Shown in pieces: positions 37,545 through 56,022 of a stretch of 64,000 nucleotides of DNA (the first letter of the stretch is position 1; each line of letters opens with the position of its first letter). The notes beneath the pieces are model-generated. The model made no database searches and was not told the origin of the DNA. It was given only the letters and a program-made list of their open reading frames with translations. The position numbers and the translations under genes are program-made. The DNA is from Poseidonibacter antarcticus. Its GTDB lineage: Bacteria > Campylobacterota > Campylobacteria > Campylobacterales > Arcobacteraceae. The stretch lies in contig NZ_RCWF01000008.1 in NCBI RefSeq assembly GCF_003667345.1, positions 1-64,000 of the forward strand, written 5' to 3'.

Positions 37545-39491
37545 TTACCCTTTAATTGCTTCATTAATTTCTTTTTTTGTATTTTCTATTACTTCTTCTA
37601 ATGCTTTTTGCATTTTATTATCAACAATATCATTTATTAATAATTTATCTAAATTTTTCTCTTTTGTTTTTAAAAATTTTGCAACTTTTTTATTCTTTTT
37701 ATTTTTATTATACATAAGCACACCAGATTTAATAAGTGTAACAACTAATTCTATGTGACCTAAAATAGCAGCATAATTTAAAAGCGTAAACCCTGAATTA
37801 TCTGCTTGATTAATATCAGCACCTGCAGCTATTAACCATCTTGCTATTTTATAATTTCCATTCCATTGTGTATGATGTAATGCTGTTCTTCCTTGATTAT
37901 CTTTTAAACTTAAATCCGCTTTTTTTGTAAGTAATTTTTCGACAACAGCTAAGTCATTAGCAATTACTGTTTTATGAAAAACTGTATATCCATTTATATC
38001 TTGAATATCAACATTTACTCTAAATTTTAATAAAAAAACTAAACGTTCTAAAAATAATTCTCTTTGCTTTAAATCTTTAAGTTTTAAACCATTATCTATT
38101 AAAACTGATAAAGGAGTATTTCCATCTTTATCTATAATATTTGGATCAAGTCCATAGTTAAATAATAGTCTAATTATGTCAAAGTCATTATATATAATTA
38201 CATCAAATAAAATATTTCTACCATTAGATCTTCTTTTAGTTAAATCTGGTCTAAAAGTTAACATTTTTTTAAAAAGTAAGTTATAATCTTCTTCATTAAT
38301 ATCTGGATATTTTTCTAAGTCTTCTTTTTTGAAACCTTTTTGAATTAATATAATTTCTGCTAGATCATCAATAATTGTTTTTTCTTCGCTATCTCTTAAT
38401 TCAATATCCGCACCATTTTTGACTAAAAAATTAATCATTTTATAATTAGAATTACCTTTTATTACTTCATTAAAAAGTATACTTTTCCCATTTATATTTT
38501 TTGTATTTATATCAGCTCCGCAATTGATTAAAAATACTATATTCTCGTAGTTCTTTTTTTCTACTTCCTTAGCTAAAATAGGTAAACCATCTTTATCTAT
38601 TTTATTAATATCTAAACCATTCTCGATAATTATTTTTGTCAATTCTAAATAACTCATATCTTTTTTAATAAGAGAATAATTCCCCTCAAGTTGAAGAAGT
38701 TCTTTTACAGTTTGTCTTTGTAAGTCTAAGATATATAATATTTCATCTATAATATTATCGCCATTAATATCAATTTGATTAATATTAATACCTTTTTTAA
38801 TCATAAGTTTTAATATATCAATATTTTTATTACCCTGTAAAATCGTATTAAATAAAACATTTCTTTTATAATTATCTAAACTATCTAAATTCATTCCAAA
38901 AAGAATTAGAGTTTCTGCAATTTTAGTATTTTCTTTTAATACAGCTTTAAAAAGTGGTGTTTCATTATTTTCATCAACTACATTAATATTTTCCATATGA
39001 TTTACTAATTCTTTTACAATATTAACGTTTCCACCTTCTACTGCGTCAAATAATACAGTCCTACCATAACTATCTAGATCATCATAATTTGGATGATAAG
39101 ACATTAAAATTTGGAATACTTTATAATTACCTTCAAGTGCTACATCTTGAAGTATAGTTCTTTTACTCGAATTTTTATGATTGATATCAAAGCCATTTTC
39201 TAAAAGTAGTCTTATGATAACTCCGTCACCATGACTTACAGCTTCTCCTAATACAGTTTTCCCATATTGATTTTCAATACTTAAATCTATACCATTTTTA
39301 ATTAATATTTTAATAGCTTCAAGTTTCTTTTTTGCACAAAGAGAGAATAAAATAGTTTTACCATTTTCATCAAGACTATTAATATCTATACCATTATCAA
39401 TATCTTCTTGAATTTTATTTATATCTATATTCTCACTAAATAGTTCTTTTTGAAATGATTCATTGGTACTATTTTTGAAAAATCTAAACAT
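37545..39491 (-). CDS. Large ankyrin-repeat protein
   Basis: This 648-residue protein is composed almost wholly of ankyrin-type repeats of about 33 residues, roughly 16-17 in number, of which many have the pattern DxxGKTxLF...A..G...I...L...GAD. Examples are IDLSIENQYGKTVLGEAV, GADINTKNINGKSILF and GADINQADNSGFTLLNY, each within the normal repeat frame. The C-terminus (about 600-648) is a lysine-rich coiled segment. No signal peptide or membrane helix is visible, so it is likely cytosolic and mediates protein-protein contacts. It is the first gene of the glmU-coaBC-uppS run. The binding partner is unknown. Confidence 0.88.
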   Translation of the reverse strand: MFRFFKNSTNESFQKELFSENIDINKIQEDIDNGIDINSLDENGKTILFSLCAKKKLEAIKILIKNGIDLSIENQYGKTVLGEAVSHGDGVIIRLLLENGFDINHKNSSKRTILQDVALEGNYKVFQILMSYHPNYDDLDSYGRTVLFDAVEGGNVNIVKELVNHMENINVVDENNETPLFKAVLKENTKIAETLILFGMNLDSLDNYKRNVLFNTILQGNKNIDILKLMIKKGININQIDINGDNIIDEILYILDLQRQTVKELLQLEGNYSLIKKDMSYLELTKIIIENGLDINKIDKDGLPILAKEVEKKNYENIVFLINCGADINTKNINGKSILFNEVIKGNSNYKMINFLVKNGADIELRDSEEKTIIDDLAEIILIQKGFKKEDLEKYPDINEEDYNLLFKKMLTFRPDLTKRRSNGRNILFDVIIYNDFDIIRLLFNYGLDPNIIDKDGNTPLSVLIDNGLKLKDLKQRELFLERLVFLLKFRVNVDIQDINGYTVFHKTVIANDLAVVEKLLTKKADLSLKDNQGRTALHHTQWNGNYKIARWLIAAGADINQADNSGFTLLNYAAILGHIELVVTLIKSGVLMYNKNKKNKKVAKFLKTKEKNLDKLLINDIVDNKMQKALEEVIENTKKEINEAIKG

Positions 39492-42597: not shown

Positions 42598-43515
42598 ATG
42601 ATTATTAATACTAACGTTTCATCTTTAACTGCTCAAGAAGCAGCAACTAATACTGGAAACAACATTACAAGTTCATTAGAAAAATTATCTACTGGTCTTA
42701 AAATCAATAAAGCTTCTGATGATGCTTCTGGTTTAGCTATTGCTGATAAACTTAGAACTCAAGCTACTTCAATTGATCAAGGTGTTGCAAACGGTAATTC
42801 TGCTGTAACTTTATTACAAATTGCTGATAAATCTATGGCTGAACAATCAAATATTCTTGATACTGTTAAAGCTAAATTAATTCAAGCTAATACTGATACT
42901 ACTTCTGATGATGGTAGAGAATCTATTAGAAAAGATATTACTAAATTATTAGAACAATTAGATAATATTGCAGAACAAACTAATTATAATGGTACTGTTT
43001 TATTACAAGCTGGTTCAAGTGATACAGCATCTTCTGATGGATTAACATTCCAAGTAGGAGAAAAAGCTAGTGATGAAATCACAAATACTGCAATCAAAGC
43101 AAATACAAGTGGATTTGGTTTAACAACATTAGCTGACTTAGAAGCAAGAGTTATGACAGCTTCTGCAACTTATGGTGCATCAGGAACAACACTTACAGCT
43201 TCTGCAACATATTCGGGTACTGGTTTAACAAGAACTATGGCAAGTGATATGCAAACTAGTATTGATAATGCTATTACTACACTAAATGGATATAGAGGTG
43301 ACATTGGGTCTACTCAAAACCAAGTTGAATCTGCGGTTAGAAACTTAATGACTCAATCTACTAATGTTACTGCTGCTGAATCTATTATTAGAGATGTTGA
43401 TTATGCAGAAGAATCTGCTAACTTTAATAAACAAAACATTATTTCTCAAGCTGGTTCTTATGCAATTAGCCAAGCGAATACTGTTCAACAAAACGTTCTT
43501 AGATTACTTCAGTAA
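42598..43515 (+). CDS. Flagellin
   Basis: This is the filament subunit, exported by the flagellar type III system without a signal peptide. The conserved N-terminal D0/D1 region (about 1-165) begins MIINTNVSSLTAQ and contains LSTGLKINKASDDASGLAIAD. The C-terminal D1/D0 region (about 215-305) ends with AISQANTVQQNVLRLLQ. The central surface domain is very short (about residues 170-215), so the protein is only 305 residues, against about 570 in Campylobacter. It is Thr/Ser-rich with a TASATY duplication, making it a plausible site for O-linked glycans. The ribosome site is AAAGGA. A Maf-pseudaminic acid locus faces it. Confidence 0.95.
   Translation: MIINTNVSSLTAQEAATNTGNNITSSLEKLSTGLKINKASDDASGLAIADKLRTQATSIDQGVANGNSAVTLLQIADKSMAEQSNILDTVKAKLIQANTDTTSDDGRESIRKDITKLLEQLDNIAEQTNYNGTVLLQAGSSDTASSDGLTFQVGEKASDEITNTAIKANTSGFGLTTLADLEARVMTASATYGASGTTLTASATYSGTGLTRTMASDMQTSIDNAITTLNGYRGDIGSTQNQVESAVRNLMTQSTNVTAAESIIRDVDYAEESANFNKQNIISQAGSYAISQANTVQQNVLRLLQ
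43156..43212 (+). repeat. 39-base spaced direct repeat in the flagellin variable region
   Basis: The 18-base unit at 43156-43173 recurs at 43195-43212 with one mismatch. The offset is 39 bases, so the reading frame is kept and residues 187-192 and 200-205 are both TASATY. This looks like a remnant of an in-frame duplication. Confidence 0.8.
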
Positions 43516-43578: not shown

Positions 43579-45615
43579 TTAATTTATAATTCTTTCTAAA
43601 CATAATATATAATCATTTATTATATTTTCTATTTGTTTTACATATACTTCTTTTATTTTATTAAGTATTTTTTTCTCATTTCTAATTTCTTTATGATTAA
43701 AATAGTGAATTATTGGAGGGAGAATCATCCTATGATATTCTTGGATTACAATAAAAAGTTTTATCTTATTTTCTGCTAATAATTTTAATATCATAGAGGC
43801 GTCTTCAATAAAAGATTTACAATTGTTAAATTCCTTATTTTTTATTTCTGAGGTTATTTTTACTACATTTTCTTTAATATAGTTGATTTCTTTTTTTATT
43901 ATATCCTTTGAATGACTAGGTAGTTTATTTGTCATATATTTCTCTAATTCTATTACTAAATTATTTTTTTTATTAATTTCTTTAAAAGTATTTATTTTTA
44001 TATTCTCAATTTTTGTAGGAATTGTATTTTTAAAAAATGCACCATTTAATGATAAATTAAATATTTTTATTTCATCGTCATGGTTAGATGTCATAGAATC
44101 TAAAGATTTGATAGAATTATAAAATAAAGATGTAGTGAAAACGATATCTTTCATATTTCCTTTAACTTTTATTAAGCTTTCTCTTCCACTAAAAGTATCT
44201 CTATTTTGTTTTTTATTAAGATTCAGTTTTGTTATTATGGAGTTTGAACCCTTAGAGTGAGTTTCTCCAGTTTTTTGATTTAATGCTAAATCAAGACCTA
44301 TAATATAAATCTCCTTTGCATTCATTTTTTGTAATATATTCAAAGTAAGCTCACCTATACTAAATCCAGAGAATGAGATATTATTCTCAATATATGGGTG
44401 AAAAACTTCATATAAGAAAAGATTTTTTTGATTGAATTTTTCCAATATTTTTTTGTTTGTTATCATTGAGGCTAATATAATAGTATTTTTATCCATTTTA
44501 GATACTGATTCATTATCAAATTGTTTATCATCAACAGTAACATATTGTTCATCTAATGTTGTTACCATATTAATTTTTATGTCATTTTGAAGAAGTTTTT
44601 TATATGAAGACCCAATAGTTACAATAAAAAATTTATTTTGGTTTTCTTTTATCCAGTTAATATTTTCATCCAATGATGGACCTGAAGCTATATAGAGAAT
44701 AGGAATATTATCAAAAAAATCAAGATTGTTTTGAATTCTATCAAATTGTAATATTTTATACTTGTCTCCTAAATATTTTGTAGTTCTATTAATATGGGTA
44801 TATAGTCGTCTATTGTAGTCATATTGTGTTGGTTTAGCTAGTAATAAATTAGCAAGTATTTTATCAATATATTCTTCTACATTTATATTTGTTGTTGAAA
44901 ATTTCAACAAATAGTTTTCTAAATGACCTTCATCTAAAAAACTCTTTATTTTCTCTTCATCAAAATCCTTATCCATAATAGAAAAGACAACTCCTTTTTC
45001 GGCTAGAACACTATAGTCAAGAGTAAATAAAGAAAGTCTAAATATTTCAAGGTTCTTTTCCAGAACTAGGTAAAGATCCGCATCAACTTTTTTTGCGATT
45101 TTAGGTATATGTCTCCCAAGAAGGGTTCCTAAAAATATAAATTTTGATATCTTTTTTAATTCTTTCTTATTATCTAATAAAGAATCTTTTAGAATCTTTT
45201 CATATTCAAAGATATCATTTATTGTTAGATTCGATAATTCTTGCATATAATTATAATCAAATCTATTTTTTCTTTCAATTTTAGGTGGGTTCTTAATATT
45301 TGCATAGCTAGAAAGAATTGCAATTGAATTGTTTTCATTAAATTCAATTTTTTTTATTAATTCATCATTTATTTTCTTAGGATCTTTATTATATAAATAT
45401 TTATTATTAGATATATCATATATATCAAAATCACCACTTTCTATAATAAATTCTAACCTATATTTCTCTTTATAAGTTCCCTCTCCTATCATTTTTGATA
45501 ATTCATCTACTCTTTGATAAAGCTCATTATTGCATTCACTTAAAAATGCAAGATTAGCTAAAAATGTTGTTGTTAATGAATTCTGTAATTCTTTTTGAGC
45601 TTGTTCATATGACAT
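43579..45615 (-). CDS. maf: Maf-family flagellin glycosyltransferase (motility accessory factor)
   Basis: This 678-residue protein belongs to the DUF115/MptE-like family. Maf proteins in Campylobacter, Helicobacter and Aeromonas transfer nonulosonic acids such as pseudaminic acid to Ser/Thr of flagellin in the cytoplasm. The central domain (about 290-480) has the family segments PILYIASGPSLDENINWI (core ASGPSLDEN), TLDEQYV, SGFSIGELTLNIL and IIGLDLALNQKTGETHSKGS. It lies convergent with the only flagellin gene in the window and downstream of the complete pse pathway, so its donor is very likely CMP-Pse or a derivative. A 136-base gap separates it from the methyltransferase gene. Confidence 0.9.
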   Translation of the reverse strand: MSYEQAQKELQNSLTTTFLANLAFLSECNNELYQRVDELSKMIGEGTYKEKYRLEFIIESGDFDIYDISNNKYLYNKDPKKINDELIKKIEFNENNSIAILSSYANIKNPPKIERKNRFDYNYMQELSNLTINDIFEYEKILKDSLLDNKKELKKISKFIFLGTLLGRHIPKIAKKVDADLYLVLEKNLEIFRLSLFTLDYSVLAEKGVVFSIMDKDFDEEKIKSFLDEGHLENYLLKFSTTNINVEEYIDKILANLLLAKPTQYDYNRRLYTHINRTTKYLGDKYKILQFDRIQNNLDFFDNIPILYIASGPSLDENINWIKENQNKFFIVTIGSSYKKLLQNDIKINMVTTLDEQYVTVDDKQFDNESVSKMDKNTIILASMITNKKILEKFNQKNLFLYEVFHPYIENNISFSGFSIGELTLNILQKMNAKEIYIIGLDLALNQKTGETHSKGSNSIITKLNLNKKQNRDTFSGRESLIKVKGNMKDIVFTTSLFYNSIKSLDSMTSNHDDEIKIFNLSLNGAFFKNTIPTKIENIKINTFKEINKKNNLVIELEKYMTNKLPSHSKDIIKKEINYIKENVVKITSEIKNKEFNNCKSFIEDASMILKLLAENKIKLFIVIQEYHRMILPPIIHYFNHKEIRNEKKILNKIKEVYVKQIENIINDYILCLERIIN

Positions 45616-45751: not shown

Positions 45752-46810
45752 TTATGCCCGTTTGTAAAGTCTTAATTGCGAATGAAATCCATCTTCAGTG
45801 ACAAAACCAAAAATTCCACTATCTACTTTTATTAGTTCATAATTTGGTAAAAAAATATTGTAATCATCACCTAAAATAGGTTCTTTTACTCCAGCCATAT
45901 AATCTTTACTTTGAACTCTTTTCCCTTCTAAAATATTTCTTAAAAGGATATATTTAGGCTCTAATTTATCTATATATTTACAATAATTTTGAACTATATC
46001 TGGTTCCATTTCTTGAAAAGATATAAAGTTTACAAATAAATCAATTTTTCCTTTTAATTTTGGTACTTGCCATGAGCATATATTTAAAGCATCATATTGA
46101 TTTCTTAGTTTTTCTATATCTAAATTTTCCAAATCTTTTGTATCTTGGTAATTTGCAATTTTTTCTTTTCCAAAAACTTCTTGTAAATAGTAAGAAGACA
46201 CAAAGCCTACAGGGGGAATATCAGCATTTATATAAAATACATCATTTCTTTTATCTTTTAAAAGTATCTCTCCTAAAGTACCAAATCCACCACCTATTTC
46301 CATAATAGTTTTAATATCACTTGTATCCACAGTCTTTTTTAAAAAGCTTAACCCCAATAAATAGTTCAGAAATGATCTCGAAAAATTTCTACCTTTAAAA
46401 GTGACTTGTTCTATTGGATTACCAATATTACTTTCTGATACAGCATCTATATATGGTTTTTTATCTATATTAGAAGCTTGCAAGACACGATAATCATTAA
46501 AAGCACTCGTTTCACCTGTAAATAGCCTTTGTAATCGTGTTGTAAATCTTTTATCAGTAACATTTTTATCAAACTCATCTATAGTCACATCGAATTTAGC
46601 TCTATTTGCTAAATATTCCACAGCACTATATCCTGGTACAAAAAAAGATCTTGTGATCGTTAAATTTCTAAAATCTTTTATATCATTTTTTTCTAATTCA
46701 TCGATAATCAAACTTGACCCATACTCCCAAAATGTTGTTGGTTTATAAAGTTCATTTTGTTTGTTCATATCTTCTAACATGAGATTTAAAAGTGGGTAAT
46801 TTTTTTTCAT
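45752..46810 (-). CDS. Putative sugar O-methyltransferase
   Basis: This 352-residue cytosolic SAM-dependent methyltransferase resembles the putative sugar O-methyltransferase family seen in surface-glycan loci. The SAM-binding motif is IMEIGGGFGTLGEILL (about 165-180), followed by NADIPPVGFVSSYYLQEVFG and VNFISFQEMEP. The gene has its own AAAGGA ribosome site and a TATAAT-like box (minus strand, near 46847-46852), and it is separated from pseI by a long inverted repeat. In context it probably methylates the flagellar glycan or its nonulosonic acid. The acceptor is not known. Confidence 0.78.
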   Translation of the reverse strand: MKKNYPLLNLMLEDMNKQNELYKPTTFWEYGSSLIIDELEKNDIKDFRNLTITRSFFVPGYSAVEYLANRAKFDVTIDEFDKNVTDKRFTTRLQRLFTGETSAFNDYRVLQASNIDKKPYIDAVSESNIGNPIEQVTFKGRNFSRSFLNYLLGLSFLKKTVDTSDIKTIMEIGGGFGTLGEILLKDKRNDVFYINADIPPVGFVSSYYLQEVFGKEKIANYQDTKDLENLDIEKLRNQYDALNICSWQVPKLKGKIDLFVNFISFQEMEPDIVQNYCKYIDKLEPKYILLRNILEGKRVQSKDYMAGVKEPILGDDYNIFLPNYELIKVDSGIFGFVTEDGFHSQLRLYKRA

Positions 46811-46943: not shown

Positions 46944-47963
46944 CTAAAGTCTCTCGCCAAATTCAAAATCTTTTTTGGCTACTGTTCCCAAAATATCATC
47001 AAAATACTTAGGATGCATTCCATACCCAGGCCGTACGCTTCTTACATTTTCTTCTGTAAACACTTCACCTTTTTTTATATCTTTTGCAATATAAAGAGAT
47101 CTAGAAAACTGCCTACTTTTTTTCTTTTTTTCATTCATAGAATAATCAACTTTACCTATAAGTTTCTCCACATCTCTTATAGCTTTTATCATCTGACTAA
47201 ACTCTTCCTTATCCATAGAAAAGTCAGCATCAGGTCCACCTATAGATTTATCTAAGATAAAATGCTTTTCTATCACTTTTGCACCCAGTGTAACTGCAGC
47301 TATAGGTGCTGTGCTTCCTAAAGTATGATCTGAAAATCCACTGATCACTCCAAAAGTTTGAGCAAGATTTGGTATCGTTGCTAAGTTTGCTTCTTCAAGT
47401 GGAGCTGGATAGGAGCTAGTGCACTTTAAAAGAACGATATCATCATTTCCTACACTTCTACATATATCGACAGCATCTTGTATCTCATCTATAGTTGCTA
47501 TTCCTGTAGAGATGATGATAGGCTCCATTTTAGATGCGGTGTATCGTATGAGCTCATAGTCCGTGATCTCAAATGAAGCTATCTTATAAGCAGATGGATT
47601 AAACTGCTCTAGAAAATCAACAGCTGTTTTATCAAAAGGGCTAGAAAATATATCTATATCGATACTTCTTGCATAAGCAAATAACTCTTTATGCCATTCC
47701 CAAGGTGTATATGCTTCTTTGTATAAATCATAAAGATATTTCCCATCCCAAAGTGTCCCTTGAGTAATTAAAAAATCATCTTTTTTACAATCAAGTGTAA
47801 TCGTATCTGCTGTATATGTCTGTAGCTTGATACAGTCTGCACCCACTTCTTTAGCAGCTTTTATAGTATCTAGTGCATTTTGCAAACTACCATTATGATT
47901 TGCACTGAGTTCTGCGATGATATATGTTCCATCTTTTTCTAAATCAAATTTACCTATTTTCAT
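46944..47963 (-). CDS. pseI: Pseudaminic acid synthase
   Basis: PseI condenses 2,4-diacetamido-2,4,6-trideoxy-L-altrose with phosphoenolpyruvate to give pseudaminic acid. The TIM-barrel NeuB domain starts with YIIAELSANHNGSL, the PseI-specific form of the motif. KLQTY, FSSPFDKTAVDFL, YKIASFEITD, GFSDHTLGS and VIEKHFILDKS follow. A C-terminal SAF antifreeze-like domain (about 285-339) includes SRSLYIAKDIKKGE and VRPGYGMHPKYF. The length of 339 residues matches PseI. The base composition appears a little richer in G/C than the flanking genes, which might reflect separate acquisition. Confidence 0.93.
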   Translation of the reverse strand: MKIGKFDLEKDGTYIIAELSANHNGSLQNALDTIKAAKEVGADCIKLQTYTADTITLDCKKDDFLITQGTLWDGKYLYDLYKEAYTPWEWHKELFAYARSIDIDIFSSPFDKTAVDFLEQFNPSAYKIASFEITDYELIRYTASKMEPIIISTGIATIDEIQDAVDICRSVGNDDIVLLKCTSSYPAPLEEANLATIPNLAQTFGVISGFSDHTLGSTAPIAAVTLGAKVIEKHFILDKSIGGPDADFSMDKEEFSQMIKAIRDVEKLIGKVDYSMNEKKKKSRQFSRSLYIAKDIKKGEVFTEENVRSVRPGYGMHPKYFDDILGTVAKKDFEFGERL

Positions 47964-47984: not shown

Positions 47985-48707
47985 TTAAGCTGTACTTCCT
48001 GCATCAACTGTAATAGTTGTACCTGTGATATTTTGAGCATCATTAGAAAGTAAATATTTAACTGTTCCTGATACATCATTAACATTTGCAAGATGACCTA
48101 AAGCACTTCTTCTTTTAATGCTTTCCAGCTTATCACCTTGAAGACCTGATGTCATTGCTGTTTGCATATATCCAGGGGCTATTGTATTTACTGTTATTTT
48201 TGCTTTTCCTAGCTCTCTTGCTAAAGATTTTGTAAATCCTTGCATCGAAGCTTTAGTAGCTCCATATACTGATAGACCATTAAAACCTGTACTTCCTATA
48301 ATTGAGCCTATATTTATCACTCTTCCTCTTAATTTCATAAGCATAGAACGACTTACATATTTTGTCAAAAGAATTGGAGCTTCTATGTTGACTCTGATTA
48401 GTTCTGATATTTGGGTTTCATGCATCGTTCCTAAAACTCCATCGTGACCTAAAGCTGCGTTATTTATCAGTCCATAAATATTTCCATGTTTTTTTGTGAT
48501 AGATTTTACTAACATGTGAATATCTTTTGTATTATTAAAATCATATTCAATATAAAATAGTTTATCACTATATTTTTCTTCTAGTTCTTTAAATTCATCA
48601 CTTTTAGTTCTTGCTATTCCTACTATTTTATAATCTTCATTTAAAAGTCTTTTACAAACAGCTAGTCCTAAACCTTTTGATGAACCAGTTACTACAATTA
48701 AATCCAT
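47985..48707 (-). CDS. Short-chain dehydrogenase/reductase, FabG-like
   Basis: This is a 240-residue NAD(P)-dependent oxidoreductase with a Rossmann start VTGSSKGLGLAV, the NNA motif (INNAALGHDG), the catalytic Ser in NIGSIIGS and the YxxxK pair in VYGATKASM. The C-terminal segment with INTIAPGYMQTAM-type sequence is FabG-like. It lies directly between the AMP-ligase gene (2-base gap) and pseI. Two roles are possible: a 3-ketoacyl-ACP reductase acting with the neighbouring ACP, or a sugar oxidoreductase like PtmA of flagellin modification loci. The sequence alone does not decide. Confidence 0.85.
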   Translation of the reverse strand: MDLIVVTGSSKGLGLAVCKRLLNEDYKIVGIARTKSDEFKELEEKYSDKLFYIEYDFNNTKDIHMLVKSITKKHGNIYGLINNAALGHDGVLGTMHETQISELIRVNIEAPILLTKYVSRSMLMKLRGRVINIGSIIGSTGFNGLSVYGATKASMQGFTKSLARELGKAKITVNTIAPGYMQTAMTSGLQGDKLESIKRRSALGHLANVNDVSGTVKYLLSNDAQNITGTTITVDAGSTA

Positions 48708-48709
48708 AT

Positions 48710-50038
48710 TTATTTCCTTTTTATTTTTCCACTTTGTGTTATTTCAATATCATTTACTATTTTTAACAGTACTGGTATTTTGAAATTTTCCAAATTTTTT
48801 CTACAATATTCTAAAATTTGTTTTTTGAGTACAGTCTTATCGATCTCTGAATCCTTTGGTATCACATCAGCACAAACTAGTGAACCCATCATTGGATTAT
48901 TCTTGGCATACACATAAGTTGTTTGTACAAGGTTTGAGTTTAATAGTGTTGCTTCTATTTCTTCTGGTTGTACTTTATTTCCACCAACATTGATACTACC
49001 TGATTCTCTTCCTGAAAAATAAACACGGTTATTTTCTATCTTTACTAAATCCCCTGTATTGATAAATCCATCATCTGAATACATAGATTCTTTTGCAATA
49101 TAGTTTTGTATTTTTGTACCTGGATTAATCCAAAGCAATGAATTATTATCTACTTTAAGCTTTATATCTCCAATTCCATTTTCTATATATTCAAGTGGAA
49201 AACCAGCTTTTTCATCTGTAACAGCGAACCCAACACCAACTTCTGTTGAAGCATAAATATGAGTCAGTTTAACATCTCTAAATTTATTTTTTAATGCTGT
49301 CAAAATACTTTGATCAGAGATTTCTCCACCAAGAGTTGCTCTTTTTAGACTTAGATTATCTGATTCTTTTGTCATAAGTACTTTTCTCCAAAAAGATGGA
49401 GTTGCTGAAATGATATTAGATTTATTTTGTACAAATAGTTCTATTGTTTCTTTCATAGAGTAATTTGATTCTGGAATAATGATACTAGAACCACCTGATA
49501 ATGCTTGTAAAAATACTTGAATACCTGAAAATCTATAGATATCAAAAGTTAATCCCCAAATATATTTTGAACCTAGCTCAATATTCTTTTTTGAAGTTTT
49601 TGTAAGACTTTCAAAAGTATGTGATATTAGCTTAGGATTATTTGTAGTTCCTGATGTTGGGACTACCCATTGTGTTTCATAAATATTTTCTAAAATATTA
49701 TTTTTATCTATCTCATTTAGTTTTAATATATTGTTTTCTAAAAAAACTTCATAGGTTGCTTTTGATTCTGTATAATATCTTTCTATTAAACTTGTTTCAA
49801 TATCTTCTGGTAAAAAAACAATTCTTTTGACTTTTCCATCTAGAATTGACAGTAATTTAGAAAATTCATAACGATCTCTTGCATTTACAACTACACAACT
49901 ATTTGATAATGTATCTATAATTTCTTTATTTGAAATGTATAAATCAAAAATATCTTTGTATGTAAAGCTATCATCCTTTGTAACAAAAGCTACTCTGGAG
50001 GATGGAATATCAGCAATATAATCTAAAATACTATTCAT
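48710..50038 (-). CDS. AMP-forming acyl ligase (ANL superfamily)
   Basis: This is a 442-residue adenylate-forming enzyme. The AMP-binding loop is VPTSGTTNNPKLISHTF. Further motifs are YASTEVGVGFAV (the A5 Glu region), INTGDLVKIEN (Asp that binds the ribose) and the C-terminal SGKIKRK with the catalytic lysine of the adenylation half-reaction. It is shorter than typical acyl-CoA synthetases (about 500-550) because the N-terminal part is reduced. The ACP gene starts four bases upstream, so the product is probably an acyl-ACP thioester. The acyl acid activated is unknown. Confidence 0.86.
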   Translation of the reverse strand: MNSILDYIADIPSSRVAFVTKDDSFTYKDIFDLYISNKEIIDTLSNSCVVVNARDRYEFSKLLSILDGKVKRIVFLPEDIETSLIERYYTESKATYEVFLENNILKLNEIDKNNILENIYETQWVVPTSGTTNNPKLISHTFESLTKTSKKNIELGSKYIWGLTFDIYRFSGIQVFLQALSGGSSIIIPESNYSMKETIELFVQNKSNIISATPSFWRKVLMTKESDNLSLKRATLGGEISDQSILTALKNKFRDVKLTHIYASTEVGVGFAVTDEKAGFPLEYIENGIGDIKLKVDNNSLLWINPGTKIQNYIAKESMYSDDGFINTGDLVKIENNRVYFSGRESGSINVGGNKVQPEEIEATLLNSNLVQTTYVYAKNNPMMGSLVCADVIPKDSEIDKTVLKKQILEYCRKNLENFKIPVLLKIVNDIEITQSGKIKRK

Positions 50039-50042
50039 ATTT

Positions 50043-50294
50043 TTACTTATTTGGATTCATTTGTTTATAGATAGCTACAAACTCTCCAAAAGTTGATGGA
50101 TAGATTGGTTCATCCATCATTGTAAAGGGATCAAAATCTAGCTTTTCCTCTAATGTAGCCACTAAAATAGCAAAGCCTAATGAATCCAATCCACTTTCTA
50201 ATAACACTACTTCATCAGTGAGCTTTGGTACTAAAAGTTTTGAATCAGTTAATTCTAATACTTCCATATATGTTTCTTTTATTTGTTCTTTCAT
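50043..50294 (-). CDS. Acyl carrier protein
   Basis: This is an 83-residue acidic carrier protein. Ser38 in ESGLDSLGFAILVATLEEKL (core GLDSLGF) is the 4'-phosphopantetheine attachment site. It is not the housekeeping AcpP, which normally sits beside fab genes, but a dedicated copy between the AMP-ligase and the GNAT acetyltransferase of the pseudaminic acid locus. It presumably carries an acyl group loaded by the ligase. Confidence 0.9.
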   Translation of the reverse strand: MKEQIKETYMEVLELTDSKLLVPKLTDEVVLLESGLDSLGFAILVATLEEKLDFDPFTMMDEPIYPSTFGEFVAIYKQMNPNK

Positions 50295-50303
50295 TATTTT
50301 ACC

Positions 50304-50861
50304 TTATATAAATTTATAATTGATCTTTTTTATTTTATTATTTAATAATTTCATCATAGAAGTATTGGAATATTTATTCCATTTCTCTTTTGAAATACTC
50401 ATTAAATAGTATTGTTCGTGATCTTCTTTTGTTTCATCTATCACTTCAAATCCAAAACTCAGATCAAATTGATAAGCAGCATTATTCTTTTTATTAACTT
50501 CTAAATTTAAGATATTTAAGTGATAAAAATTAAAAACTTTATCTATCAAAAGATATGTCGAGATAGAAGAGATAAAAGGATTGGTTTTCTCTTTAAAATA
50601 TAATCCCCAAGTTGATTTCTTTTTTTCAGAGTTAATAGCTGTGATATATATTGCACCAACAATCTCTTCATTGTAGAAAACTGAATAATAAATATTATGC
50701 TTATCCAAACGCAATTTTTCTATCCATTGTATATGATCTTCTATTCCAATGATTTCAGATGATTTCATGTTCAATCTAACATGGTCACTATTTCTTATAT
50801 CTAAAATAGCAATTTGTTCTTCATAGTTTAATTCAGTAAAGTTTTTAAAAATCAAATTCAT
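50304..50861 (-). CDS. pseH: GNAT N-acetyltransferase, PseH-like
   Basis: This is a 185-residue GNAT-fold enzyme. PseH acetylates the 4-amino group of UDP-4-amino-4,6-dideoxy-L-AltNAc made by PseC. The N-terminus FKNFTELNYEEQIAILDIRN (core FTELN...RN) and IEDHIQWIEKL resemble Campylobacter PseH, and the acetyl-CoA-binding region with NKKNNAAYQFDLSFGFEV holds the end motif. The enzyme has a C-terminal extension of about 20 residues. Because an ACP, an acyl ligase, a deacetylase and a formyltransferase adjoin it, the donor may not be acetyl-CoA. It overlaps the PIG-L gene by four bases. Confidence 0.82.
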   Translation of the reverse strand: MNLIFKNFTELNYEEQIAILDIRNSDHVRLNMKSSEIIGIEDHIQWIEKLRLDKHNIYYSVFYNEEIVGAIYITAINSEKKKSTWGLYFKEKTNPFISSISTYLLIDKVFNFYHLNILNLEVNKKNNAAYQFDLSFGFEVIDETKEDHEQYYLMSISKEKWNKYSNTSMMKLLNNKIKKINYKFI

Positions 50862-51538
50862 TTTATAACTCGCACACTTTTAAAGGCTTCAACATGTTTC
50901 TTTCCTACACGCATCCCTTGATATTTAGCATTGAGTTCAATACCCTCTAAACTTCGTGGATGTGGATACTGACATAGTTCTGAAGTATACTTTTCCATCG
51001 ATTTTAGTTTTAACTCTATAGTATCACTGATGTCAAAAAATACATCAGGCGAAAAAGACAATGGATAGTTCCATTCTGTTGATGACAATACTTCAAAACT
51101 ATATATCTCTTTTACACACTCTTCGCTCATAGGTCTCGTTGCTGTTACAACTGCTTTGTAAGTTATTTGATGGTCTATGTTTAAATCATGTTCATAATGT
51201 GTAAAGATGATATCTGGTTTCACTTCATCTTTTACTTTTGAAATAACTTTTATAATATCAAGTAAATCAACACTATCAAATCTATTGTCAGCAAAAGACT
51301 CCACAAAAACTTTTTTAATACCGATGGCATCATTTGCATTTTGTATCTCAGTATTTAATATTTCTATTTCATCTTTTTTATTCTCTATAATACGATGTTC
51401 ATCTCTACTTGTTTTGCCTTCACCTAAAATAAGAGTGTATGCTTCATATCCTTCTTTTATAAGTCGTGCAACTGTTCCAAAACATCCTAAGACTTCATCA
51501 TCTGGATGAGCTGCAACTATCAATATTTTTTTATTCAT
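50858..51538 (-). CDS. PIG-L/LmbE-family N-deacetylase
   Basis: This 226-residue zinc-dependent deacetylase has the AAHPDDEVLG motif at the N-terminus (His-Pro-Asp-Asp zinc/catalytic residues) and the second histidine motif in THYEHDLNIDHQITYKAV. The longest frame starts at a TTG (51544), but ATG 51538, which overlaps the formyltransferase stop (ATGAATAA), is the better start. The family removes N-acetyl groups from GlcNAc-type sugars. In this locus it most likely deacetylates a pseudaminic acid precursor so that another acyl group can be added. The exact substrate is inferred, not shown. Confidence 0.87.
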   Translation of the reverse strand: MNKKILIVAAHPDDEVLGCFGTVARLIKEGYEAYTLILGEGKTSRDEHRIIENKKDEIEILNTEIQNANDAIGIKKVFVESFADNRFDSVDLLDIIKVISKVKDEVKPDIIFTHYEHDLNIDHQITYKAVVTATRPMSEECVKEIYSFEVLSSTEWNYPLSFSPDVFFDISDTIELKLKSMEKYTSELCQYPHPRSLEGIELNAKYQGMRVGKKHVEAFKSVRVIK

Positions 51539-52226
51539 TTTCAATCATCTCAAATCTTCCTGTTAACTTTTTATCTTTTTGATGAACTTGGCTAAACTCT
51601 ATTTTAATATTTTCTAGCTCCATATATGCTTTAGGATAACCTTCTGCATCTAGCATACGAATAAAATCATAGAGTTTACTTATACTTTTATTCTCTAATT
51701 TTAGGATATTACTATCTTCAGGTTTTCTTCTTTTAAATTGTGTAATTTTTCCACTTTGTTTTTGAGGTTTTAAGTCATTTTCTAAAAAAGAAGGTATCAT
51801 CTTTTCAAATACTATTTTAGAAATTTTGATAAAATTCTCTTGGGCACTTCCTATACTGATATTACAATCTTCTTTGAGATAAATATCTCCAGTATCAAGA
51901 CCATCTTCAACTTTAAGTGCGGATATTTTTGTATCGTACACTTCATTCATAATCAAGTTTTGGAAAGGACTTCCTCCTCTTCCATAGGGTAAATCTGTCA
52001 TATGAAATACAACACAGTTAAAATTATCGTAAATCTTTTTGGGAATTACCCATGACCAATGTGGGAAAAAAATATATTTAGGCTCTAGAGTGTGAACTGT
52101 TTCTAAAGTTAATTCTTCCTTATTAGTAATTAAATGAAAATTAAATTCTTCTTTATATTGTTCTTTTATTTTAAAATAATTCTCAATATTCCATTCTTTT
52201 ATTGTTGTGATGATTATATTTTGCAT
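51531..52226 (-). CDS. Formyltransferase (methionyl-tRNA formyltransferase-like)
   Basis: This 231-residue protein has a formyltransferase fold. His75 in VFHMTDLPYGRGGSP corresponds to the catalytic His, and the LDTGD motif supplies the catalytic Asp (Asp111). The usual Asn two residues before the His is Val73. The length is much shorter than methionyl-tRNA formyltransferase (about 310) and fits sugar N-formyltransferases that use 10-formyl-tetrahydrofolate. It is nested in the pse genes, overlapping pseG by 13 bases and the PIG-L gene by eight. An N-formyl group on pseudaminic acid is the natural prediction. Confidence 0.82.
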   Translation of the reverse strand: MQNIIITTIKEWNIENYFKIKEQYKEEFNFHLITNKEELTLETVHTLEPKYIFFPHWSWVIPKKIYDNFNCVVFHMTDLPYGRGGSPFQNLIMNEVYDTKISALKVEDGLDTGDIYLKEDCNISIGSAQENFIKISKIVFEKMIPSFLENDLKPQKQSGKITQFKRRKPEDSNILKLENKSISKLYDFIRMLDAEGYPKAYMELENIKIEFSQVHQKDKKLTGRFEMIENE

Positions 52227-53161
52227 ATTAGTATAATCTTTTTTTCTAATTTTTTTGTATTAAATTCTTTCAAAACCAAATACTTTTTCTTTCTCAAATA
52301 CTCATACATATCTACTTGATTATCCGCTGTTTTAATAGCTATAAAAGGAAGTTTCATAAAATACACTTCATTTACAGTTACACTTGGTGTCACTATGGCA
52401 AAATTACTTTTATTCATAAGTTTTGCTATTTTATTTGAGTTTATATGTAACTTTATCCATGGTTTATTTTTACAGTATTTTTTGAGTTCTTTTAGATGTT
52501 CGTTTGCTATTGTTGTTACTAGATTTACTTCTAAGTTGGTAAACTTTTTTAGTACTTTTAATATTTTGATATTTATATTACTATGATCTGTTCCACCCAT
52601 TGCGATAAAAATTGAGCACCCAAAGATATTTCCTGTTGTCAGTTTAGATTTTAGAGATGATAATTGTTTTTTATTTTTTAATCTCTTCTTTTCTTTTATA
52701 AACTCATCTCTTAAAAGTGTATATTTACTTCCACATCGAAGTTCACACTCTTTTGGAACTAAATCTTTATATTTCTTTTTATTCGCACTTATATTATGAT
52801 TAAGTAAGATATCACAATAGTGCTTTTCATAAGTATCATCAAATGATAAAATTCTTAAATTTGAATGATTAATTTTTAATTTCTTTTCATATTTATAATC
52901 AATACCATAATGATCAATAACAATCATATCTATTTTAAAATCTTTGATTAGTTTATCAATTTCTTTGATATTATTACTTTTTAATATTGTTAGATCATAA
53001 TTTGCTTCTAAGATTTTATGATTGATATTACCTTTTAGTTCTTGTGTAGCAAATATAATATGGTCACCTTTTTTTGCATACTTTTGAGCAAGAACTAAAT
53101 CACGCATAATATGTCCTGTACCAATGTTTGAAGAGGAATCTGCACGAAAAAGAATATTCAT
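52214..53161 (-). CDS. pseG: UDP-2,4-diacetamido-2,4,6-trideoxy-beta-L-altropyranose hydrolase
   Basis: PseG removes UDP from the nucleotide sugar to give the free hexose for PseI. The GT-B fold begins with ILFRADSSSNIGTGHIMRDL, where the GTGH His is catalytic. CSIFIAMGGTDHSN is the second-domain glycine loop and VTPSVTVNEVYF the nucleotide-binding part. ATG 53161 lies in a TGATG overlap with pseF; the longer frame would begin with TTG. The C-terminus runs into the formyltransferase start by 13 bases, so the last residues (LICKI) are shaped by that overlap. The length is about 315 residues, longer than the Campylobacter enzyme (about 274). Confidence 0.9.
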   Translation of the reverse strand: MNILFRADSSSNIGTGHIMRDLVLAQKYAKKGDHIIFATQELKGNINHKILEANYDLTILKSNNIKEIDKLIKDFKIDMIVIDHYGIDYKYEKKLKINHSNLRILSFDDTYEKHYCDILLNHNISANKKKYKDLVPKECELRCGSKYTLLRDEFIKEKKRLKNKKQLSSLKSKLTTGNIFGCSIFIAMGGTDHSNINIKILKVLKKFTNLEVNLVTTIANEHLKELKKYCKNKPWIKLHINSNKIAKLMNKSNFAIVTPSVTVNEVYFMKLPFIAIKTADNQVDMYEYLRKKKYLVLKEFNTKKLEKKIILICKI

Positions 53162-53874
53162 CAAATTTCACCACTTTGTTTTAAAGCCTGATACATAAAC
53201 TCAGCTCTTTTCCAATCTTCTAAAGTATCTATATCTTGAACTAAATACCTAGGTAAAATAACAGGAATACTTATATCGCTAAATACTATATTATTTTTTG
53301 ATTCTTTTTGCCTTGTTCTATTTGTAAAATAAAATTGTCCAGCATCTTGATACGCTTCTTCTAAGTCTTGACTTCTGCTCATATAATGTTCTGGTGCAAA
53401 CATTTCGCATCGTCCCTCATTATTAAGTTTAAAAGTTCTTTGAATTGGGAAAGGCATAGTTGTAGAACTAAAAGCATTTATAACATCACTTGATTTTAGA
53501 TTATCATACCCTTGTATTAAATACTCTTTTTTTAGAAAAGGTGCTGTTGCATAAATAGTACAAATATATTCATAACTTTCCCCTTGTGATTCTAGATACT
53601 CAACAGTATGATTAACAACATCAACAGTACCTGTAAAATCATCACTAAGCTCAGGAGGTCTTAAAAAGGGAACTTCAGCTCCATACTGTTTAGATATTTT
53701 AGCAATTTCTTCATCATCAGTACTTACTACTACTTTTTCAAATAAATTTGATTTTAATGCAGTTTCAATACTATAAGCAATAAGTGGTTTTCCAAAAAAC
53801 TCTTTTATATTTTTCTTTGGAATTCTTTTACTTCCACCTCTTGCTGGAATAATTGCTACTGTATTTTTTCTCAT
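53161..53874 (-). CDS. pseF: CMP-pseudaminic acid synthetase (cytidylyltransferase)
   Basis: PseF activates pseudaminic acid with CTP to give CMP-Pse, the sugar donor for the Maf transferase. The N-terminal nucleotidyltransferase motif IPARGGSKRIPKKNIKEF is clear, as are the SIETAL helix, VVSTDDEEIAKI and the PSELSD-like segment (PPELSDDFTGT). The length is 237 residues, normal for the family. It lies two bases after pseC and overlaps the pseG start. NeuA-type enzymes for other nonulosonic acids are alternatives, but the complete pse set favours Pse. Confidence 0.93.
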   Translation of the reverse strand: MRKNTVAIIPARGGSKRIPKKNIKEFFGKPLIAYSIETALKSNLFEKVVVSTDDEEIAKISKQYGAEVPFLRPPELSDDFTGTVDVVNHTVEYLESQGESYEYICTIYATAPFLKKEYLIQGYDNLKSSDVINAFSSTTMPFPIQRTFKLNNEGRCEMFAPEHYMSRSQDLEEAYQDAGQFYFTNRTRQKESKNNIVFSDISIPVILPRYLVQDIDTLEDWKRAEFMYQALKQSGEI

Positions 53875-53876
53875 AA

Positions 53877-55001
53877 TTATTTTAAAACCTCAAATAATGT
53901 TTTAATCACATATTCTTGTTCTTCGCTACTTAATAATGGATACATAGGAAGAGAAAAACACTCTTCATAATATTTATCCATAACAGGTGTAATCTCATTT
54001 CCATATGCTAAAGATTTATAATATGGTTGTTTATTTATAGGCATATAGTGAAGTTGTATTCCTATATTTTTTTCTCTTAGTTGATTAAACAAATCTACTT
54101 TTGAGATAGATAGTTTTGTAAAATCAACTTGAACTACATAAAGATGATATGAAGACTTCCCATCAAAAGTATAAAGTGGTTTTACTATTGAATTTTTAAA
54201 AGCTTTATCATAAGTTTTTGCTATTTCATATCTTCTTTGTAGAAAATCAACTTGTTTATTTAATTGTGTTAAACCTAAAGCACATTGAATATCTGTAATA
54301 CGATAATTAAAACCTAAATCTCTCATTTCATATTCCCATGGTTTCATATCTTTTGTTTTTATCATTCCATGAGTTCGAAGTTGTAATAGTTTTTCATAGA
54401 TTTCTTTAGAATTTGTACTAATTGCTCCACCCTCACCTGTTGTTAAGTGTTTTACAGGATGAAAAGAGAATATTCCACAATCACTATTAGTACAAGAACC
54501 TGATTTTATACCATTATAAGCAGCACCAATTGAGTGAGCATTATCTTCTAATATTGTTATATTATAAGTCTTTTTTAAATACTTCAATTTATCTTGATTT
54601 AACATACGACCACTAAAAGAAACTGCATAAATTGCTTTTATACTTTTATCTTTTTTTAGTTCTTCTTCACATATATCTAAGTCAATATTCCCATCACTAG
54701 AAATATCAACAAAAATAGGTTTTGCTTGAACATAAAGTATACTATTTGAAGTAGCTAAAAAAGAGTTAGGAGTTGTTAAAACCTTATCATCTTTTTTTAG
54801 TAAAACTAAAGAAGCTAGATGTAGTGCTGCTGTTCCATTTGAAACGGCTACTACATATTTTGCTCCACAATAAGTGCTTATAGCATTTTCAAACTCTTTT
54901 ACTTTTGGACCAGTAGTCAAAAAATCTGACTTTAGAGTCTCTATAACTATATCTATATCATCTTCTTGGATGCACTGCTTACCATAAGGTATAAATTTCA
55001 T
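53877..55001 (-). CDS. pseC: UDP-4-amino-4,6-dideoxy-N-acetyl-beta-L-altrosamine transaminase
   Basis: PseC is a PLP-dependent aminotransferase (DegT/DnrJ/EryC1 family) that adds the 4-amino group to the PseB product using glutamate. The PLP lysine is Lys184 in FSFHPVKHLTTGEGG. FEN...VSNGTAALHLAS and LEDNAHSIGA are the cofactor-binding motifs. The full length of 374 residues is normal. It lies one base after pseB, so the two are translated together. Confidence 0.95.
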   Translation of the reverse strand: MKFIPYGKQCIQEDDIDIVIETLKSDFLTTGPKVKEFENAISTYCGAKYVVAVSNGTAALHLASLVLLKKDDKVLTTPNSFLATSNSILYVQAKPIFVDISSDGNIDLDICEEELKKDKSIKAIYAVSFSGRMLNQDKLKYLKKTYNITILEDNAHSIGAAYNGIKSGSCTNSDCGIFSFHPVKHLTTGEGGAISTNSKEIYEKLLQLRTHGMIKTKDMKPWEYEMRDLGFNYRITDIQCALGLTQLNKQVDFLQRRYEIAKTYDKAFKNSIVKPLYTFDGKSSYHLYVVQVDFTKLSISKVDLFNQLREKNIGIQLHYMPINKQPYYKSLAYGNEITPVMDKYYEECFSLPMYPLLSSEEQEYVIKTLFEVLK

Positions 55002-55002
55002 C

Positions 55003-56022
<1,020 letters not shown>

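Follow-up and report, generated by a model that had tools for sequence, protein, structure and literature searches.

A 64,000-nt stretch of the Poseidonibacter antarcticus genome (hereafter, the window; on contig NZ_RCWF01000008.1, here C8, of a 2.9 Mb Arcobacteraceae genome in 55 contigs) contains three contiguous genes for an acyl carrier protein (ACP), an AMP-forming acyl ligase and a short-chain dehydrogenase/reductase (SDR), situated immediately downstream of a gene for a PseH-like N-acyltransferase of the GNAT family and within a complete pseudaminic acid (Pse)/Maf/flagellin locus. Judging from sequence comparisons, we think it reasonably probable that these three proteins form a dedicated acyl-donor module, resembling a priming cassette, that would supply the adjacent GNAT with one short hydroxyacyl-ACP. 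The four genes are the following:

50304–50861, minus strand: PseH-like GNAT N-acyltransferase, 185 aa, predicted to be fed by the ACP (NCBIfam PseH)
50043–50294, minus strand: putatively dedicated ACP, 83 aa, with the DSL serine at residue 38 and a net charge of −9 (Pfam PP-binding)
48710–50038, minus strand: AMP-forming acyl ligase, 442 aa, clade A (AMP-binding and AMP-binding_C)
47985–48707, minus strand: FabG/MupS-like SDR reductase, 240 aa (adh_short; top PDB match MupS, 4YXF)

The GNAT and ACP genes are separated by 9 nt, the ACP and ligase genes by 4 nt, and the ligase and SDR genes by 2 nt, and a further 21 nt separate the SDR gene from pseI. The contiguity of the three cassette genes had been pointed out in a preliminary description of this DNA, as had the lack of a ketosynthase, which holds for the whole of contig C8: PF00109 and PF08541 match only contigs C3, C4 and C10.

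In the pathway that we infer, the ligase would use ATP to load a short acid, or a dicarboxylic acyl-CoA, onto the phosphopantetheine of the ACP, and the SDR would reduce the ACP-bound acyl group to 3-hydroxypropionyl-, 4-hydroxybutyryl- or 3-hydroxybutyryl-ACP. The PseH-like GNAT would then draw the acyl group from the ACP, and not from acetyl-CoA, to acylate the amino sugar precursor of Pse, most likely at N4, the equivalent of N7 in Pse. Modification of the other nitrogen would fall to the neighbouring deacetylase and formyltransferase-like protein, and the completed sugar would be transferred to flagellin by Maf. A short hydroxyacyl-ACP would be the outcome common to the main readings, among which the sequence does not separate the 3-hydroxypropionyl, 4-hydroxybutyryl and 3-hydroxybutyryl forms.

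The ACP-ligase-SDR cassette and its relatives

Six other Campylobacterota loci possess the triad as a conserved unit, with the same gene order and 54–84 % protein identity, namely those from G306 (L033), Sulfurimonas OB5 (L034, the same as L053), G199 (L035), Arcobacter SZUA-1382 (L052), Sulfuricurvum (L054) and Campylobacteraceae DT_9 (L055). Identities are 67–82 % for the ACP, 54–64 % for the ligase and 69–84 % for the SDR. The orthologues retain the ligase motifs TSGTTNNPK, YASTE and TGD and the Lys of GKIKR, as well as the SDR motifs TGxxxGxG, S and YxxxK (TGSSKGLG, IGSI and YGATK in the window). The ACP itself lies barely above the Pfam PP-binding cut-off (21.0 bits versus 20.8), and a PDB profile search with ACP alignment A2 gave no matches; nor did profile A1 at E 1e-20. 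The triad also occurs in the same order, with 31–51 % identity, on alphaproteobacterial plasmids from Qingshengfaniella (L056) and Haematobacter (L057); the Haematobacter ligase (L057:6116–7993) bears a long low-complexity insert, rich in Pro, Ser, Thr and Gly, that separates the ATP-binding motif from the N-terminal part of the protein.

The order acyltransferase-ACP-ligase-SDR is found with a GNAT in the window, L034, L052 and L055, and with a hexapeptide transferase in L035, L056 and L057; the GNAT9-type gene of L033 and L054 is instead located downstream of the SDR gene. The surroundings vary, comprising Pse genes (window and L052), a formyltransferase-PIG-L-GNAT arrangement (L055), legionaminic-type genes (L033 and L035) or another amino-sugar locus (L034). 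Since a related ligase was found in only four of 59 near relatives, and in no other member of the genus, the module is probably mobile by horizontal transfer. A separate arrangement occurs on plasmid p3 of Azospirillum brasilense (L058:4536–10772), with pseI, a second small ACP, an alpha/beta hydrolase, ACP-ligase-SDR, ketosynthase III and flagellin, and is possibly a flagellin acyl-sugar locus in which the acyl chain is extended.

Around 50 of 298 Campylobacterota genomes contain a ligase related to that of the window at ca. 30 %. Many belong to what we designate clade B cassettes, arranged as ACP-SDR-ligase in most loci read and often placed directly after a PseH-like gene (L041–L043, L141–L148). 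They share the logic and the GNAT clade of the window cassette, but differ in gene order and in their ACP, and their ligases and SDRs are only ca. 26–30 % and 24–30 % identical to those of the window. L139 and L186 represent a third type, in which ACP-SDR-ligase is followed by two genes, GNAT and PseI. In L052 (clade A) and L042 (clade B), the cassettes adjoin PIG-L genes 83–84 % identical to that of the window, and from these comparisons the two loci appear to represent a natural exchange of one cassette for the other.

The AlphaFold2 (AF2) model of the ligase (mean pLDDT 83) has DltA (7vhv) as a match, with Z 28.0 and a root-mean-square deviation (rmsd) of 4.5 over 418 aligned residues, although the resemblance goes no further than the ANL fold in general, many structures being tied at Z 27–28. 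The shortened N-terminus had previously been taken as a sign of specialisation. The protein is indeed short compared with ligases of 480–550 aa, but so are its relatives (427–460 aa), the ligase of the thiomarinol plasmid, in the same size class (445 aa), and the MenE model (442 positions); we thus discarded this interpretation, the trait being family-wide. We also dropped an assignment as amino-acid activator, based on equating D166 with the Asp of PheA and DltA: a gap-free register places Arg169 at the substrate-Asp position of amino-acid ligases, which argues against an amino acid substrate.

The SDR is most similar, among solved structures, to MupS (149 bits), with the top FabG entries at 144 bits and less. 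It falls short of the TIGR01830 FabG cut-off (192 bits versus 297.75), which the FabG of the same genome (C4:177916) clears with 323 bits. A tblastn search with the ligase led to plasmid pTML1 of a thiomarinol producer, on which the genes for a ligase, an SDR and an ACP are also adjacent (L201); the SDR is 39–44 % identical to that of pTML1, and shares with it and with MupS the motif NNAAxGxxGxLxTM, equivalent to NNAGITxD in FabG. In mupirocin biosynthesis, MupQ (adenylation), MupS (reductase) and MacpD (ACP) convert malonyl-CoA to a 3-hydroxypropionate starter, according to a passage of PMC10098928 citing Walker 2020. As in the window, the mupirocin and thiomarinol triads comprise an adenylating ligase, an SDR and a free-standing ACP encoded side by side; however, the mupirocin triad hands its product to the ketosynthase MmpF, whereas the window has no ketosynthase and a sugar N-acyltransferase gene lies upstream instead. 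Reportedly, a CoA/ACP bis-thioester undergoes reduction in the mupirocin system, the thiomarinol proteins acting likewise on succinyl-CoA to give 4-hydroxybutyryl. The order of the genes in pTML1 differs from that of the window. By analogy, the window triad seems to work like a starter-unit cassette, yet we did not class it as a MupQ/MupS/MacpD member, because the ligase tree is less tidy than the SDR kinship. With MupS as the nearest solved structure, a reduction of something other than a 3-ketone, for instance to 3-hydroxypropionyl or 4-hydroxybutyryl, is as likely as that of acetoacetyl to 3-hydroxybutyryl.

A rather unlikely alternative is that a free 3-oxo acid (acetoacetate, for example) is what the ligase loads, that the SDR acts as a FabG and that the GNAT transfers 3-hydroxybutyryl, the resulting Pse bearing this group. 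The catalytic motifs of FabG are present in the SDR, which obtains high scores with FabG models, and the GNAT resembles FdhC, a 3-hydroxybutanoyl transferase; furthermore, vioR, a 3-oxoacyl-ACP reductase gene, is needed for a 3-hydroxybutyryl-type viosamine on the flagellin of P. syringae (PMC3927599), and Pse with a 7-(R)-3-hydroxybutanoyl group is known from S. boydii 7 (PMC3628348). Nevertheless, 3-hydroxybutyryl thioesters are ordinary intermediates, which would leave little reason for a dedicated ligase and carrier. In addition, a ketosynthase and no ligase is encoded in the P. syringae island, and no FabG of known structure is as close to the SDR as MupS.

Residue signature of the cassette-associated acyltransferases

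The GNAT clears the cut-off of NCBIfam TIGR03585 (PseH; 101.6 bits versus 93.1), and its AF2 model (pLDDT 90) is closest to PseH of H. pylori (Z 22.3, rmsd 1.9 over 166 residues), with FdhC at Z 20.0. Both FdhC (5KTA, 5KTC) and PseH (4RI1, 4XPK) share with the window protein the GNAT fold and act on amino-sugar acceptors, and both bind CoA. In PseH, Gly103 and Lys133 touch the CoA pyrophosphate and Tyr138 is the general acid (PMC4363471); these three residues, kept in PseH, are replaced by S98, A128 and D133 in the window GNAT, which has W85 at the equivalent of position 91.

We compared, in a single alignment, 30 GNATs associated with any of the three cassette types and 33 without a cassette at hand, including two solved PseH proteins. 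Among the latter, Gly103 and Tyr/His138 were invariant (33/33 each) and Lys/Arg133 occurred in 31 of 33. Conversely, none of the 30 cassette GNATs had Gly103 or Tyr/His138, position 138 being usually Asn or Asp, only three had Lys/Arg133, and all had Trp at position 91. The tree separates the cassette GNATs, as one clade, from the others with support of 100/100. Cassette GNATs also have a basic C-terminal extension of 31–38 residues, with a charge of +1 to +9, compared to −9 for the carrier ACP. Searching the 298 Campylobacterota genomes with a profile of cassette GNATs, the top 19 matches were all intact and near an ACP/ligase cassette: a clade A or B ligase was adjacent by coordinates in 18, and the remaining one (G089) was near a third-type cassette.

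It is unlikely that the GNAT keeps using an acyl-CoA (acetyl- or hydroxyacyl-CoA) and that the ACP cassette has its role in a different step, or for a different sugar, of the locus. Apart from the score over the PseH cut-off, FdhC is an instance of a GNAT that shares the Trp and the Gly-less loop and is able to bind CoA, so that loss of the Gly does not by itself show ACP use; we had considered it as proof and rejected it on account of FdhC. On its own, the Gly-less loop may mark a larger acyl group. However, FdhC retains Lys133 and has His138, whereas the window GNAT has lost both Lys133 and the general acid, and no intact GNAT of the clade was found without a nearby ACP cassette in the 298 genomes. 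These further losses and the strict pairing with an ACP favour acyl-ACP, which the cassette GNATs likely use as donor. N-acyl amino acid synthases that accept the acyl group from an ACP are mentioned in a passage of PMC8762209, citing FeeM.

Several observations weigh against the acyl-donor module that we propose. The split in the GNAT tree is one evolutionary event, and hence the 63 sequences are not independent observations, nor does the Fisher p value for the two sets count independent events; the crystal structure of FdhC with CoA and its 3-hydroxybutanoyl product (5KTC) corresponds to a protein lacking the P-loop Gly and having the same Trp. G045 and G173, lower in the list of profile matches, have genes of this clade that are disrupted at G-rich tracts, and neither genome possesses a cassette ligase. 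The SDR kinship with MupS and the pTML1 SDR is moderate, with support of 82/87, below the usual limit. Lastly, clade A ligases cluster apart, together with the alphaproteobacterial ones (97/98), and remain outside the group of the pTML1 ligase, which includes those of clade B (98/97).

The preliminary description had proposed a dedicated carrier, ligase and reductase feeding the GNAT. The conserved pairing, and a GNAT clade devoid of the CoA-contacting residues of PseH, are in agreement with this part of the proposal, which needs amending in that the SDR is not simply a FabG. More tentatively, the PseH-annotated clade could be a separate class of sugar N-acyltransferases that use acyl-ACP and are served by exchangeable cassettes of polyketide-priming type, whose swaps would change the N-acyl group of flagellin Pse; we regard this as a possibility with nearly even chances.

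Broken genes of this clade were observed in two Campylobacter-like genomes (L187:7871–8858 and L188:6186–6844), in both cases at a G-rich tract coding for glycine; in L187, a canonical PseH is joined by its end to the start of the broken GNAT. A cassette ligase was not found in either genome, and the interruptions look like phase variation or decay. A literature search on Campylobacter Cj1304/1307/1308 found no information.

The pseudaminic acid locus and the position of acylation

On the minus strand, the genes follow the order PseB, PseC, PseF, PseG, formyltransferase-like, PIG-L, PseH-like GNAT, ACP, ligase, SDR and PseI, the middle genes having start and stop codons that overlap or are 2–21 nt apart; beyond PseI there are genes for a sugar O-methyltransferase and a Maf glycosyltransferase and, then, a flagellin. 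This is a single flagellin Pse operon, with the ACP-ligase-SDR genes as an insert between those for the GNAT and PseI. Promoter matches in the sequence were at chance level (71 found versus 71.6 expected). The remaining features are:

55003–55992, minus strand: PseB dehydratase (ca. 70 % identity to genes in Pse loci)
53877–55001, minus strand: PseC aminotransferase (65–75 % identity to genes in Arcobacteraceae Pse loci)
53161–53874, minus strand: PseF, CMP-pseudaminate synthetase by position and homology (64–79 % identity in Arcobacteraceae Pse loci)
52214–53164, minus strand: PseG (TIGR03590, 251.9 bits versus a cut-off of 153.6)
51531–52226, minus strand: formyltransferase-like protein (Formyl_trans_N and C_2)
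50858–51544, minus strand: PIG-L family N-deacetylase with an AHPDDE motif (Pfam PIG-L)
46944–47963, minus strand: PseI pseudaminic acid synthase (TIGR03586, 518.6 bits versus a cut-off of 340.3)
45752–46810, minus strand: putative sugar O-methyltransferase of NanM type (TIGR04371, 264.6 bits versus 44)
43579–45615, minus strand: Maf-type flagellin glycosyltransferase (MptE-like and Maf_flag10_N)
42598–43515, plus strand: flagellin, presumed final acceptor (flagellin-type N- and C-terminal sequence; ORFs ca. 70 % identical adjoin the Pse loci of relatives)

Relatives of the PIG-L protein, 69–84 % identical, occur in Pse loci whether or not a cassette is present, accompanied in most of them by a formyltransferase-like gene. 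The pair also accompanies canonical GNATs in loci lacking a cassette (L130, L132, L133, L136 and L156), and is probably a separate module that changes N5. PseH acts on N4 of the UDP-sugar, equivalent to N7 of Pse, and by homology the window GNAT should do the same. The most likely assignment is thus N7 of Pse for the GNAT and N5 for the PIG-L/formyltransferase-like pair, although the reverse may apply. The formyltransferase-like protein contains FHMTDLPYGRGGSP, without an Asn two residues ahead of the His, a residue that formyltransferases presumably have, and may catalyse a reaction other than simple formylation. In another Pse locus (L132:3931–7406), two canonical PseH-like GNATs flank the formyltransferase-like, PIG-L and PseI genes, which suggests that both nitrogens are re-acylated there.

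Outside the glycosylation locus, a 648-aa ankyrin-repeat-like protein is encoded between GlmU-like and helicase-like genes (37545–39491). A separate cluster of the same genome (G000, contig C3, ca. 192–207 kb) possibly corresponds to an aryl-polyene-type pathway; it comprises another two ACP-like genes, an SDR, a short frame resembling an AMP-ligase, and one match of KASIII-like and two of ketosynthase-like type.

Known acyl modules in flagellin loci

The group II island of Aeromonas, also a Pse flagellin locus, contains after pseH the same three kinds of proteins, ACP (orf1), reductase (orf2) and AMP-synthetase (orf3). Going by the text of the paper (PMC7874193), their order is ACP-reductase-ligase, unlike in the window, and the island additionally includes luxE, luxC and many glycosyltransferases. 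A liposugar component was proposed by the authors, and the paper assigned no function to the three genes (PMC7874193). It is quite improbable that the product in the window contains more oxygen or is later methylated (dihydroxybutyryl, O-methylglyceroyl), as perhaps happens with these islands. Such a group would suit the O-methyltransferase gene adjoining pseI and the linking Pse derivative of A. piscicola AH-3, which has 376.14 Da, 60 Da above diacetyl-Pse, in a strain whose pseH is followed by genes for an ACP, a 3-oxoacyl-ACP reductase and an AMP-synthetase (PMC7874193). However, the mass excess has other solutions, such as the exchange of two acetyl for 3-hydroxypropionyl groups, and the Aeromonas islands, which also contain luxE and luxC, were compared through their published description.

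SDRs are common in sugar pathways, and that of the window has a weak Pfam Epimerase match, as many SDRs do, but a role on a nucleotide sugar, outside the supply of acyl donors, is very improbable: the gene follows those for ACP and ligase in seven of seven clade A loci, whatever the sugar (Pse, legionaminic-like or other), its top matches are beta-ketoacyl-ACP reductases and MupS, and the Pse pathway has no vacant step.

In the viosamine island of P. syringae (vioS, for a KASIII, acp and vioR) and in orfB–E of P. aeruginosa PAK, an ACP and an SDR provide an amino sugar of flagellin with a hydroxyacyl group. The need for the reductase has been shown genetically in P. syringae, whose flagellin loses the modified viosamine upon deletion of vioR, the SDR gene beside those for ACP and ketosynthase (PMC3927599). 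These modules contain a ketosynthase where the window has a ligase, and act on viosamine. The Shewanella genes sfmABCDE were rejected as an instance of the same cassette, because SO_3264 encodes a methyltransferase and SO_3265 a protein of the ATP-grasp type (PMC3765264). Flagellin loci were thus already known to contain acyl modules; what is new here is the residue signature of the GNATs, the exchange of cassettes and the link to MupS.

If the acyl-donor module operates as we propose, many Campylobacterota genes annotated as PseH N-acetyltransferases would not use acetyl-CoA, and predictions of the flagellin glycan would be wrong at one acyl group. It would also account for the puzzling presence of ACP, ligase and SDR genes inside Pse clusters, tying the N-acylation of flagellar sugars to starter-unit cassettes of polyketide type, and would provide a portable module to place chosen hydroxyacyl groups on nonulosonic acids.

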